Assembly: GCA_033439295.1 (NCBI GenBank)
Contig: JAVTLE010000021.1
Coordinates: 1,116,009 to 1,180,008 of the forward strand
DNA from: Deuterostichococcus epilithicus
Lineage: Eukaryota; Chlorophyta; Trebouxiophyceae; Prasiolales; Stichococcaceae
Direction: 5' to 3'
DNA: 64,000 bases
In this document: one piece after another, positions 35,035-44,200 of the stretch
Layout: each line of letters begins with the position of its first letter
Position numbering within the stretch: the first letter of the stretch is position 1
Translations under genes and position numbers: made by a program
The notes under the pieces: generated by a model
Databases searched by the model: none
The model's input: only the letters and a program-made list of their open reading frames with translations
What the model was told of the DNA's origin: nothing

Positions 35035-38000
35035 TCACCGCTTGCCATATTTCTTCTTGAACATCTGCCCGGCGTCATCGGCGTCATCGTGCGCGCCCTT
35101 CCGCTTGCCCTTTTTGTTCTTATCCGTCTCCCGCATTAGCACCGTGGCCAGGCGCTGTGCCTCGCCCACCCGCTCCTGCAGCAGCAGCACCGCCTCCTGG
35201 CGGGGGGCGGCGCACGCACACTGCAGTCAGTACGGATTGCAGACACATGATGACTCTTGCCGGGAACCCGCTGGAAAAGACCACCCAAGCTGCTGCGCCA
35301 CCGGCGCCCACCGGCTGCGCCTGACCGGTGAGTTTGCGCTGTGCATCGCAGAGGATGGGACGCCATGCGAGGACGTATGAGATGGCTGTCCGCAAATACA
35401 TGTCTGCAGACAGGTGTCCGCAGTTAGATGAACCGGACAACTGTCCACGCTCAGCTGAACCCGGACACTACGCCGCAGACACTTCAGCAGCTGCAGCAGC
35501 GCCAGCATGACACAGGGTGGCGCATTCCGCCTGCCTGCTGGCTGGCGGGGCACACGCGAATCATCGCACACCGCTTGTCCTATCAAGCGACATGTGCATA
35601 ACCCCATTAAGAAGAGGTGCGCAGTAACAGCTCGCCTAGCCAGCAGTGTGCCGGCTGGCGAGGCGGCGACTCATCGCACCGCTTCTTCAAATGACAAGCG
35701 GTGCGCTGTCAAGCCACTCTGGCAAGCCAGCGGGTGTGCAGGAAGCTGATTCGTGGCCTGGAGCTACAGCAGCGCCATCAATGCGGGTGGCGAAGCCAGA
35801 TCGATGGTCGGCATTCAGTCGGTTGAGGGCTCACCCGATCAGGAACGGGTGGCCGAAATAATCTGCCGCAACACATGACGGTGCAGGTGCAACCAGTGGT
35901 TGCCAGAGAGCATCAAGAGAATCACCTGCTCTGTAGGGTACAGCTCCATTTTCTGCCCGGTAAGCTGCTCGATCTTCTGAAACAGCTCCACGTCGTACCT
36001 ATATGCCAGCACAGCAGCGCTCATCAACCTTTTCCCGTGACACAGTCCACGAGCAGACGTACGTTGACATTGGTTGTGAGCAGAGCGGCCAGCCTCACAA
36101 AGTGTAAAAGGTCCCACGGACTCTGCACATGGCGCTCTACGCACCGTGCGTGGCGCCGCAGCAGTCGACGCTCATGCATGGGGCAACAGTTGCTTTGGGG
36201 GAGCGGACACGCGGAAAAAGCCCGCACTGCGTGACGAAGGTGAGGGAGCGGCCGGAGCGCCCCGCGCGGGCGGTGCGGCCCACGCGGTGCACGTAGTCCT
36301 TGGAGTTGGTGGGCACGTCGTAGTTCATGACCACATCCACCTCCGGGATGTCCAGCCCGCGCGACGCCACGTCCGTCGCCACCAGGATGTTGCGCTCGCC
36401 TGCCTGCGCATGGGGATGTTTACGTTTGCTCTCGGTGCATGATTTGTCGCGGCTGGGGGGTTCCGAGGTGTTGGCCACGATGTTGCAGCGCTGGACTTGC
36501 AGCTGTGTGAGACAGGACCCTGGACGGAGTTTGTGAGTCCCGCTTTGATGACTGGCCCAGGATGTGTGAGGCCGACAGGCAGGCCGTGCAATGCGGTTGC
36601 CAGTCGCATCGAGCACAGTCACGCCCAGCATGGAGCTACCGGCGTGTGACACCCGTGGCGAAAGCAATCTCTCTGCAGCCACAGCGATCGGGCCTCACCT
36701 TGAACTTGTTGAGGGCGCCCAGCCGCTTGGGCTGGCTCATCTGGCCATGGATGGGGATGGCGCCGAAGCCAAGGTTGCGCAGCGCCAGTGCGATCTTGCG
36801 GGAGTTATCACAGGTGCGCGTGAAGATCATGACCGTGCTGCTGGCCAGCTCCGTCAGCACGTACGCCAGGTAGCAGTCCTGCAGACAGGATGGTGGGGAC
36901 ATTCTTGACGTGTTTGATTGACAGACTGTCGCACCGCAGCCAGTCTGAAGCAGCCTGTGAGGAACGGTGCAGCCTGTCTGCGTCTGCAACAGCGCCAGGT
37001 AGGATGCACAGGCGCAAGGGGTTTGTGTCTGTGGGACCCAGGCAGGCTTTGCTCCGCAGCCTCTGACACAGCTGCCTGGAAACTGCCGCCTGGATGCGCC
37101 CGCGCCTTGTGCTTGGCTGGGACGAAGAGGTATTGCTGCCGCAGGGTGTCCACCGTCGTGTACTTTGCAGACACCTCCACCTTGACCGGGTTCTGCAGGC
37201 ACGCCCGCTGCAGCTTTTGCACCTGCAGTTGCGGCACGCACGAGGATCGGGCAGGGGCCTGTCTTGCGGGCCGCGCAAGACGAGGGGCAGCAGGTCGCGG
37301 GGTGCTGAGGGTCAGCATGTGCCCGCCTCTGCCGACCAATGCGGCAGACGTCACCAACACGCAGCAGCAGCTGGTGGCGAAGCCCTGGGCGTCGAACAAC
37401 ATCTGACTGCTGCTGCGCAGGGTCAGTGCTATGCGCAGGAGCAGCAGCCAGAGGAGTCGCCGCAGCAGGACGGGCACCTTGGACGTCATGGTGGCAGAGA
37501 ACAGCTGCGTTCGGCGCTCGCGCGGCACCGACTTGAGAATCTGGTCGATCTCCTGCTCGAAGTCCATGTTGAGCAGTCGGTCCGCCTCGTCGAGCACCAG
37601 GTGCCGCAACGTCCTCAGGCTGAAGCCCTGCGGCCGTGGAGGAGGGTGCCTGATGAAGTGCGTGTCCTCCTTCAGGTAGTCGTGGCCGGGGTTCACTCAA
37701 GTCCAAAATGGGTGCCGCCTGACCTTCCGTCCTTGGTATCACCTGACCGCATCGGTCGTCAGCGCCCGAGGCGGCTCAGTGCGAAGGAGCAGTTGCCCAC
37801 CTTGGTGTTTGACAGGTGGTCCACGACGCGGCCGGGCGTGCCGACGATGATGTGCGGCCGCTTGCCGAGTGCAATGGCCTGTGTTGCACGGCTACAGATC
37901 AGGCGCTAGGGCATTGTAGTCCATTGCTATGCGCGCCACGAACCAACGAGTCGCTCGAATGAAAGTTCAGACGAGTGAGTATGGTTGATGCTGAGTATTT

Positions 38001-38612
38001 AGTGACAATCAGTAGGCCGCAGCCGCCGTCGCCTCCATTCCCAGCGACGGTGCTCGGCGGCTGCCACAGGCAGCGGTCTGCCCGGTGACACGTGAGGAAC
38101 TGGCGCAAAGGCCTCTAACATCAGAGCTTGCCTGCGCCATCATGTCGATGCCGCCAACTAGCACAGCGCACTTGACGCCGATGGAGGCGCCAAGCGCCTC
38201 AAACTGCTCCGCAATCTGAATGGCCAGCTCGCGGGTGGGCGACAGCGCCAGCGCAAAAAGCGCCTGCGGCTTGTCTAGCAGCTCCTGCAGGATGGGCAAC
38301 GCGAAGGCGCCCGTCTTGCCGGAGCCCGTCTGCGCCAGGCCGATGACATCCCGCCCTGCGGCGGCACAGTGCGAGTGGAAAATGCAGCATCGTCCTTCAC
38401 AGGGACCAAGTGACAGTCCATCATGCATGATGCTTCTAGGTGTTTCAGAAGCTGCTCGGTGACGGACCTTGCAGGAGGTGCGGCACTGCCTGCTCCTGGA
38501 TGCCGGTGGGTGTCTTCCAGCCAAGCGCGACGGCGGCCTCCGCCAGCTGCTCGCAGACGCCCAGCGCCTGAAACTTCTGGACGCTGGTCTTTTCGACCTG
38601 CTCCTCCACCAT
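35035..38612 (-). CDS. DDX47: DEAD-box RNA helicase DDX47/Rrp3 (18S rRNA maturation)
   Basis: Rrp3/DDX47 is a nucleolar DEAD-box ATPase needed for early 18S pre-rRNA processing. Nine exons fit: 38612-38468, 38355-38132, 37878-37801, 37627-37478, 37222-37106, 36878-36699, 36403-36228, 35998-35926, 35196-35035. Motifs in order: Q motif [10 protein letters not shown]...[11 protein letters not shown], motif [12 protein letters not shown], Ia [11 protein letters not shown] in [11 protein letters not shown], Ib [51 protein letters not shown], then [28 protein letters not shown] and [15 protein letters not shown]. The [17 protein letters not shown] block and NMDFEQEID identify the DDX47 branch. The tail is Lys-rich. 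Introns after 38132 and 37106 begin with [12 protein letters not shown] is short for the N-terminus, so an upstream exon is possible. Confidence 0.95.
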
Positions 38613-39166
38613 GCCCAGTGTGCTGCTCTCTGCCTTCGTTCAAAGCCTGAGTTATCGAGGCAGTTGAGTTCTGACAACTGACGGCAAGGTGCAGGAGGGC
38701 TGCCTGATACGGTGCGACGTGCGAGCTGTAGTGTTTCCCGGACACTATGCGTGTTCCAGAAGTCACCACAGATGTGTGCGCGAGTGAGAGGTGTGGATGC
38801 AGATGGAGTCTGCTGGCAAGTGACTGCGTTAATCACGGAAGCTCGCAGCACATGATGCAGGGCGGCCCCAAATGCACTTGCATCATGCGCAATGCGAGCA
38901 GCGAGCACTCTAACAAGGCGTTGCCTCTGTGCACGTTAATTTCGGCTACCCACCGTTCTGCGTTGCTTCTCTTGCTCGAAAGCTTGAACTTCGCAACGTT
39001 GTTGGCCGTGGTTCTGAACTTCTCCCACTTTCGGCTCAGAGAGAGGCGACACGGCTGGCGGGTGGACGCCTGAGGACAGCAAGAGGTCTGCAGAGCACGC
39101 CGTAGCAGCAGACTCCGTTGCCGCGCCGCCCACGCCGCTCCTGCCGCGCATGACCAGCGGGAAGCC
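38613..39166. promoter_or_regulatory. Divergent promoter region, DDX47 and Svp26-like gene
   Basis: About 550 bases lie between two divergent ATGs. No clear core-promoter element or repeat is visible. A further 5' exon of DDX47 could lie here. Confidence 0.3.
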
Positions 39167-41267: not shown

Positions 41268-44200
41268 TCAGGCTGTCGTGGCCTGCGAGGGCGCAGAAGA
41301 GCCATTGCCGCCCACCGCCTCCGCCGCGGTGGCAGGTGCCGCAGCATCGGCGGCAGCTGGCGGTGTGTCGCCGTCGAGCGACGTGCGGGCCGAGGCGAAG
41401 GCCTTAGACAACGACCCGGTGCGCGCTGGCGACTCCTGTGCCGCCGGTGCAGGCGCCACCGCGGCATCAGGCGCCGCCTCCTTGCCGGCATCCTGCTGCT
41501 TGACGGCGGCTGCGTCCTCCACAACTGGCGCCAGCGGCGGCCTGTCAGCGCTGCCCCCTGCCAGCTTGTCTGCAGCAGCAGCGCCACCGCCGGCGGCTGG
41601 CCGCTCGACGCTCGTGCCGGGCGAGGGCGGCAGGCCGCGCGGCGCTGCGGGCGGGCTCGCGCCTGCCAGCTTGTGGGACGCCAGCTTGTCGGCAGCGGCC
41701 GCCATGAAGCCGCGGTCCGGCGAGTGGGAGGAGGCAGCTGGGCGCCGAGCTCCGTGGCCGCTGTGGCCAAAGCTGCCGCCGCCGCCCTTGCGCTTGTCGG
41801 CGACGCCGTTGACGTGGCCGTACTTGCCGCCGAAGCCATGGCCACGCTCGTAGCTGCCTGTTGGCGTGTTGCCGCGACTACGATTCCGATCCTGAGGCGC
41901 AGCCCAGGCACTGGGCGTCAGCACTTCCAATGACCCCAAGGAGCACTGTCAATGGCACCACACAGGAGCACAGCCGCGTAGAGAACCGAACTGTGTTTGT
42001 ACAGGCGGACGGAGCCTCAGAACAGATCTTGGTTGAGAAAGTTGTCATCCGCAGAGGCATACAAGCCCTCGGAATTAGCATGGATGTGATCATCACTGGC
42101 TATGTCCGTCAAATGCATCTATTCAGGTGCAAGCAACTTTGTGTATGTCATAGAGGGTGCCAGGCTGAAGTGCATTTGTCGCTATGACTCAGGCGACAGG
42201 CGACGCATGAGGCAAGTGAAGGTGAGCAAGTCAGAGTTGTCAGCCTCAGAACAGATCTTGGTTGAGAAAAGTTGTCATCCGCAGAGGGCACAAAGGCCCT
42301 CGGAATTAGCATGGATGTGATCATCACTGGCTGCACATCTATCAGGGTTGTGTGCTGTGACAAGGCAAACATGCCGTGGCTTCCTGCATGTGGGTTGACC
42401 GTGTTGCCGGTCAAAGCAATCCACAGAACAGACAGGAGGAAATCGAGACACGAGGAAAGAGAGACACACAAGCGCATGCAGCGCATCAAGCCTCAGAACA
42501 GATCTTGGTTGAGAAAGTTGTCATCCGCAGCGGGCGCGACAGGCTCCTCGGAATTAGCATGGATGTGATCATCACTGGCTTGACAAGATATGGGCTGCGG
42601 ACGTGACAGCGCACTGCCGCAGACCTGGGGTAGACTTTGCAGATCACAGCGTCTGGATGAAGCCGAAAGTGCAGCTGTCTAAAATGCGCCATTTGCGGTT
42701 GCGACGCGCTTGCAGCGCTGCTGAGGCACTCCCCCGGAAAGGACGCGTTTGCAGCATCTCAGGGCCCGGCTTGATGGACGGCGCAGGGGTCCGTCGCGAT
42801 GTGCTTCGCAAGTTGTCCGTCATGGCTTTGGGCGCGTGGGAGAGGGGGGAGCAAGGAGCGGGACAGGACTGGACCTGTTGGTGGCGGATGCGGTCGGCCT
42901 CAGGCTGCGCAGCCCGGAAGTCCTCCAGCGTCCGGAACTTGGTGTCCAGCAGCTCCTTCAGCTGCAGGCGGGGGTTTATTATTTGTCAATGGTGGAGATG
43001 CGTGTGAGCGCCACTTCACCGTGGCATGGGGGACAGCAGGCGCTGGCACGTCTCCGCGAGGGAGGTTCGCATGCAGCAGCTCTTTCAGCTGCAGACGGGG
43101 CCCCAATGCGACAGAGTATGCGCAGATGTATGAGCACAGACTGCCCACGTCTGCGTGAGGGGCGCAGAATGCCAGCATCTCTGTGCGAGGCCTGCCTCAT
43201 GCTCTGGGTTCATGGGGCTGATATAAAGTCGGAAGTGCAGGGTGGGCGGCCGGCATGCAGCTGCATGCAAGTTGACATTACAGTCGTAGGTAGGAAGCTT
43301 GGGGCCGGCACCTCCGCGTTCATCTGCACGCCAGCATCCTTGGGGATGCCGTTGTAGTGGTGGAACGCCCTGCGCACGGACACGCACAGACTTGGCACAA
43401 AGTTGCATCGGCAGTGGCTTTGGGTGGTGAGCGTGGACAGGGCGCTGCACATGCGAAAGAGCGGTCGTCTACTCGGTATCGCGTGTGCACGTGCAGCACG
43501 ACAGCTGCATGTTGACAGGGGGTTGTGCACCACCAGCCAGGAGACTGACCAGTACTTCTCGAGCCCATACAGCCGCGGCGGCGTCGACGCCTTAAAGTCC
43601 TGCATGTCATGGGCGGTCAATCAGGAAACAATAAAACTTGAACCAATACTTCTGCTATACCAGCAAGGGGACATCGTCGGACCAAGAGCGTGTCGCCAAA
43701 ATCCCCCAATCAATCATGAGGAACGCTCGGACCGCGCCTTGCTCGCAAGCTTGCTGGGTGACTCTCACATGCCACCAGATCGAGAACCGAAGATGGGGAG
43801 TCCCACCTGCAGCGTGATCTTCTCGAAGTCGGCGTACAGCTCAGGCTCGAAGGCGCGTTCGAGGCCGTAGGAGAAGAAGCGAAAGAGGCACTCCATGCCA
43901 TACTGGTAGCCGTCGCAGGCGTCCTCCCAGGCGAGCGCGCGGAATTCGTCGTACATTGCCGTGTTGAAGGTGTCGCGCAGGAAGTAGGACCAGAAGCGGA
44001 ACAGCGTGTTCATCTCGTCGCTATGCCCGATGCCTGCGGGAAAGGAGGTGCGCAAAGATGTAGGGGCTGAAAGGCCTTCAGACGAGGACATTGTACACCC
44101 AAGGGACATGCGCCAAATGGAATGGGGCCAAATGCCAGCGAACGGCAGCTGCAGCTGTGAAGGTGGGTCGTGCTTGTCGCCCTGACCAAGTTTGTCAGGG

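Follow-up and report, generated by a model that had tools for sequence, protein, structure and literature searches.

In yeast, position A796 of 18S rRNA is guided by the snoRNA snR53. In the available portions of the literature, cited here by PMC number, Arabidopsis SnoR53Y is assigned two positions, 18S A801 and U6 A48 (PMC8053127), and the 18S site is tabulated for three plants (Arabidopsis, tomato and tobacco), for yeast (Am796) and, as a prediction, for O. tauri (Am770), whereas the table gives none for human (PMC11542601, Table 2). For Neurospora crassa, snR53 and snoR53Y are given as the counterparts of CD11, an intronic snoRNA that carries one D' guide for both 18S-Am793 and U6-Am47, as well as a D guide for a 26S site, A356, that is termed species-specific (PMC2780460). 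The same source matches the U6 site of CD11 to mammalian mgU6-47. The sites of a further snoRNA, U24, are C1437 and A1449/G1450 (PMC8053127). As to gene arrangement, the snoRNAs of Chlamydomonas and plants are for the most part arranged in polycistronic clusters that contain multiple isoforms; in O. tauri, introns harbor 72 of 131 snoRNAs and 2 of 12 clusters, and the snoRNA genes are single-copy with three exceptions (PMC7671301). Few plant snoRNAs are intronic (PMC5122169). Finally, in mammalian cells the LARP1 protein is reported to bind the transcripts of snoRNA host genes (PMC8266598).

Here we describe a predicted intronic snoRNA cluster in the green alga Deuterostichococcus epilithicus whose guides resemble those of snR53, SnoR53Y and CD11 and whose host gene is LARP1. 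Positions refer to the window, i.e., the whole stretch of 64,000 nucleotides that was analyzed, unless another contig is named. The host intron is predicted at 41892–42874 on the minus strand (983 nt, GT...AG, phase 0), between a stretch that includes the end of an upstream LARP1 exon (42875–42985, minus strand) and the predicted last coding exon (41268–41891, minus strand), which reads DRNRSRG...ATTA and a stop over 207 codons. The original prediction had placed the intron at 41892–42879, and we model its upstream end at 42874 instead; the resulting donor, GTCCAG, is in our judgement not a strong one. By themselves, neither the slice 42878–42985 nor the last coding exon 41268–41891 matches Pfam. 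When the predicted exons are joined, the La domain (PF05383) is recognized at 79.7 bits and LARP1_HEAT/DM15 (PF21071) at 194.2 bits over profile positions 4–149 of 149, whereas the unjoined exons score more weakly (the first La exon has no match, and the two HEAT pieces reach 21.8 bits, against a cut-off of 27, and 123.6 bits). All five PDB matches of the host are named LARP1, La-related protein 1 or La ribonucleoprotein 1, and the intron sits after the DM15/HEAT region. The designation of the intron as the last of LARP1 is thus right at the level of the predicted gene model, as the intron has GT/AG ends in phase 0 and the 207-codon frame downstream is open and ends in a stop. The minus strand also carries, downstream of LARP1 at about 36027–38935, frames of a DEAD-box helicase; their best match in PDB is to DDX47, a ribosome-biogenesis helicase (3ber_A, E 5.1e-55).

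Three copies of a sequence of about 90 bases lie in this one intron, all on the host strand. Copy A, the 5'-most in the LARP1 transcript, spans 42489–42580 (92 nt, minus strand), with its C box at 42575–42569, D' guide at 42563–42552, D' box CCGA at 42551–42548, C' box at 42526–42521, D guide at 42509–42497 and D box at 42496–42493. Copy B spans 42242–42332 (91 nt, minus strand; C box 42327–42321, D' guide 42315–42304, D' box 42303–42300, C' box 42280–42275, D guide 42262–42250, D box 42249–42246), and copy C, the 3'-most, spans 42013–42101 (89 nt, minus strand; C box 42096–42090, D' guide 42084–42073, D' box 42072–42069, C' box 42050–42045, D guide 42033–42021, D box 42020–42017). Their lengths and their start-to-start spacing of 229–248 bases agree with the triplet first reported, which had been put at 230–250 bases apart. 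Every copy runs in the same order, from AGCC through box C (GTGATGA), a guide, box D' (CCGA), a variable loop, box C' (GGATGA) and a second guide to box D (CTGA) and GGCT, so that the boxes and ends claimed earlier are present in all three. Specifically, each has the terminal RUGAUGA and CUGA boxes and the complementary ends of a box C/D snoRNA, and in each the internal boxes are one base off TGATGA (C') and CTGA (D'); minimum-energy folding forms the full AGCC/GGCT end stem in one of the three. A scan of both strands of the window for RTGATGA followed by CTGA 50–110 nt on, with a perfect 4-bp end stem, returned exactly these three copies, while 60 dinucleotide-shuffled windows gave a mean of 0.12 matches and a maximum of 1.

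The copies are far better conserved than the DNA between them. Of 93 alignment columns, 81 are invariant; apart from column 65, the 12 variable ones all fall in columns 36–50, between D' and C', where there are 11. The bodies are 92–95% identical in pairwise alignment, whereas spacers and flanks, in six comparisons, share 48–55%, each inside the range of 50 shuffles (in the case nearest the upper limit, at 54.6%, the shuffles went up to 55.4%). Alike bodies within diverged spacers are what selection on the RNA body would be expected to produce. At the level of the genome, BLAST with copy C on the 46.8-Mb assembly (21 contigs) found at least three places, all in the LARP1 intron, and no fourth, a count that is a lower bound. 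An exact pattern placing TGATGA no more than 15 nt from CCATGCTAAT likewise occurs in three places in the whole assembly, again all in the LARP1 intron (reversed control, 0), and within the limits of this pattern the three copies look like the genome's sole guide of this type. These counts bear on the dispersed-repeat alternative raised in the original prediction, which we reject, as BLAST and the exact pattern both find copies in the LARP1 intron only. The idea of a functionless repeat in decay, or of a mobile-element fragment, is hardly credible: the copies are indeed tandem repeats, but the genome searches found three of them, all in one intron, and boxes and guides are intact in three of three while the spacers have diverged beyond recognition. 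Searched with an exact gapped pattern, prokaryotic and viral contig collections held no relatives, as expected from the composition of those collections.

Covariance-model searches point to the same class of RNA. At gathering thresholds no Rfam family matches the three copies. A relaxed search of 41800–42950 returned 19 matches, every one to a snoRNA or scaRNA family on the minus strand, and these coincide with the copies to within three bases. The top family by bits is SNORD24 (RF00069; 30.0–31.3, below its gathering threshold of 41), followed by snoU6-53 (up to 26.5 bits, gathering 36), which has the lowest E-value (0.0029). The snoR53Y model (RF01279) reaches at most 19.4 bits against a gathering threshold of 43, and we therefore file the copies as working like the snR53/SnoR53Y type and not as members of the RF01279 family. 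Over the whole window, a relaxed search (E up to 1) gave ten matches, six of them to the snoRNA copies at E-values of 0.16–0.97 (0.29–0.58 for SNORD24), by themselves not significant; the other four (mir-922, SAH and isrG twice) fall far below threshold, leaving no other RNA gene recognized by Rfam in the window.

The D' guide has targets in two RNAs. Its sequence, TCCATGCTAAT, is complementary to ATTAGCATGG(A), which is found in both 18S and U6. Against an 18S-like fragment from the alga's own genome, 11 of 11 pairs are Watson–Crick; against the genome's U6 gene (98.2 bits) there are 10 Watson–Crick pairs and one G–U. In both, the fifth base from D' (D+5) faces the A of TTAG, so that the snR53/SnoR53Y-type geometry, a D' guide on ATTAGCATGG with this A at D+5, is present in the copies. 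Judged by the shared sequence, the selected A would be the equivalent of Arabidopsis 18S A801 and U6 A48. Shuffled D' guides reached the observed score in 63 of 1500 cases with one target set and in 94 of 1000 with another. The 18S-like fragment (C19:1767166–1767419, minus strand) lies near a run of N and was recognized by BLAST with an 18S query (88% identity over 71 bases, 98% over 45); its resemblance to that query ends a few bases past the ATTAGCATGG site. Rfam at gathering thresholds found no rRNA in the 8 kb around it, and the assembly yielded no full rDNA.

The D guide, ACCAAGATCTG, is complementary to CAGATCTTGGT of 25S rRNA, and the base at its D+5 position is a G, which lies three bases to the 5' side of the C guided by U24 (C1437 in yeast). 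Pairing was counted on seven fetched LSU sequences, six from records titled bacterial MAGs and one from a viral contig, which were picked by a pattern containing most of the target and so show the neighboring bases and not conservation at large; six give 11 Watson–Crick pairs plus one G–U, and the seventh 13 plus one. The form AACAGATC of this target was not supported, as all seven sequences read TGCAGATC, the form used for these counts. Rfam recognized eukaryotic LSU over the site in six of the seven. As a side observation, five of the six GTDB records titled bacterial MAGs hold eukaryotic LSU rRNA, probably contamination, and the last 389 bases of the 4.5-kb IMG/VR contig match eukaryotic LSU rRNA, probably a chimeric assembly. 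In the alga's own assembly the 25S target stretch was found neither by exact pattern nor by a 3-mismatch pattern, the latter built on the unsupported AACAGATC letters. Shuffled D guides reached the observed score in 38 of 1500 cases (one target set) and 4 of 1000 (another set). The motif CCAAGATCT followed by CTGA within 8 nt occurs at 21 places in the genome (10 forward, 11 reverse; reversed control, 2 and 1), three of which are the LARP1 copies; with 18 places outside them, the D' guide is the more distinctive of the two. Pairings of at least about 10 bp that cover D+5 were found with the 18S-like fragment, with U6 and with the LSU of other eukaryotes. On its own, this complementarity is modest and would be weak evidence; the case for snoRNAs is built on boxes in three of three copies, alike bodies within diverged spacers and a D' site common to yeast, plants and Ostreococcus.

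The D guides of the copies and of U24 overlap on 25S, which, together with the rank of SNORD24 in Rfam, raises the question of whether the copies are U24 isoforms for the standard U24 sites. We consider this very unlikely. A separate U24 lies elsewhere in the genome (C9:2191496–2191568, minus strand) and scores 47 bits, over the Rfam cut-off that the LARP1 copies fail to reach and that the same search exceeded in none of 14 control genomes. Moreover, the guides differ: in the LARP1 copies a UGUU between AAGAUC and the D box shifts D+5 by three bases, onto the G, and their D' guide fits 18S and U6 and lacks the ATTTGCTA element of U24. Neither the equivalent of C1437 at D+5 nor a D' guide for A1449/G1450 is found in the copies, and with a proper U24 elsewhere we reject U24 identity for them. 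The separate U24 reads ATGA in place of CTGA at its expected box D.

The G selected on 25S is absent from the plant-centered site table in the available text of PMC11542601, and G1443–G1445 are not named in the available text of PMC8053127; methylation at this G is thus a prediction. G1434/Gm1434 is an 18S site in PMC11542601 and is guided by SnoR19 in PMC8053127. The accessible part of PMC8351944 makes no mention of the site names sought. The absence from the plant table is one argument for a narrower function, in which the D' guide serves U6 alone, like mammalian U6-53, or 18S alone, and the D guide provides accessory pairing or has no effect. The placing of snoU6-53 (second by bits, first by E-value) and a U6 pairing about equal to that with 18S would fit as well. 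However, the 18S pairing is at least as good as the U6 pairing, and Arabidopsis SnoR53Y and Neurospora CD11 are each assigned both 18S and U6 in the portions available (PMC8053127; PMC2780460), so we regard the narrower function as doubtful.

Box C/D snoRNAs in the last LARP1 intron, as first proposed, remain the best reading of the locus, given the boxes, the uniformly snoRNA or scaRNA Rfam matches, the rRNA and U6 guides and the domains of the host. Specifically, the copies are very probably isoforms of one dual-guide box C/D snoRNA, expressed as a polycistron from that intron. In the pathway that we infer, LARP1 pre-mRNA would be spliced and the intron debranched and cut, and exonucleases would halt at each C/D-bound core to leave three RNAs of about 89–92 nt. 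The D' guide would then direct the particle to the A of TTAG in 18S and U6 and the D guide to the 25S G, where fibrillarin would add 2'-O-methyl groups. A more far-reaching proposal, which we think improbable, is that the alga obtains its guide for methylation of 18S, U6 and the 25S G from the LARP1 intron and from nowhere else, that this 25S G lies inside the U24 footprint such that the two snoRNPs compete, and that LARP1 output is thereby tied to the modification of rRNA and the spliceosome.

Intronic gene clusters in Chlamydomonas are reportedly the subject, to go by its title, of a 2008 paper by Chen and colleagues. Taken with the multi-isoform clusters described in PMC7671301, these make the present arrangement one of a known kind. 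The original suggestion that a LARP1 intron as multi-copy host was undescribed therefore holds only in part: multi-copy clusters are reported as usual in Chlamydomonas and plants, whereas LARP1 as a snoRNA host was not found in the mostly open-access literature searched, including the available text of PMC8266598, PMC6954239 and PMC7671301. The general picture is unchanged by this cluster, yet if the reading is right, LARP1, a translation-control gene, joins the snoRNA hosts, green algae gain an example of a guide common to 18S rRNA and U6, and a testable 25S methylation site is placed beside that of U24.

Compared with the known systems, then, the algal copies are like SnoR53Y and snR53 in carrying a guide for the probable equivalent of 18S A801 (yeast A796), which in SnoR53Y also serves U6 A48, but here box D has a guide of its own, for 25S, and three copies share a LARP1 intron. 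Neurospora CD11 is similar in being intronic, with a D' guide for 18S and U6 and a D guide for large-subunit rRNA; it differs in its 26S site, A356, and in occupying one table row in the available source, where the alga has three tandem copies. U24/SNORD24 has its D guide on the same 25S stretch, with a target three bases away and a different D' guide. The clusters of Chlamydomonas reinhardtii and plants also hold several isoforms of one snoRNA each (PMC7671301), though the algal host is LARP1, and with few plant snoRNAs being intronic (PMC5122169), the position in an intron has more in common with Chlamydomonas than with land plants. While in mammalian cells it is the LARP1 protein that binds snoRNA host transcripts, in this alga the LARP1 gene would itself be the host.
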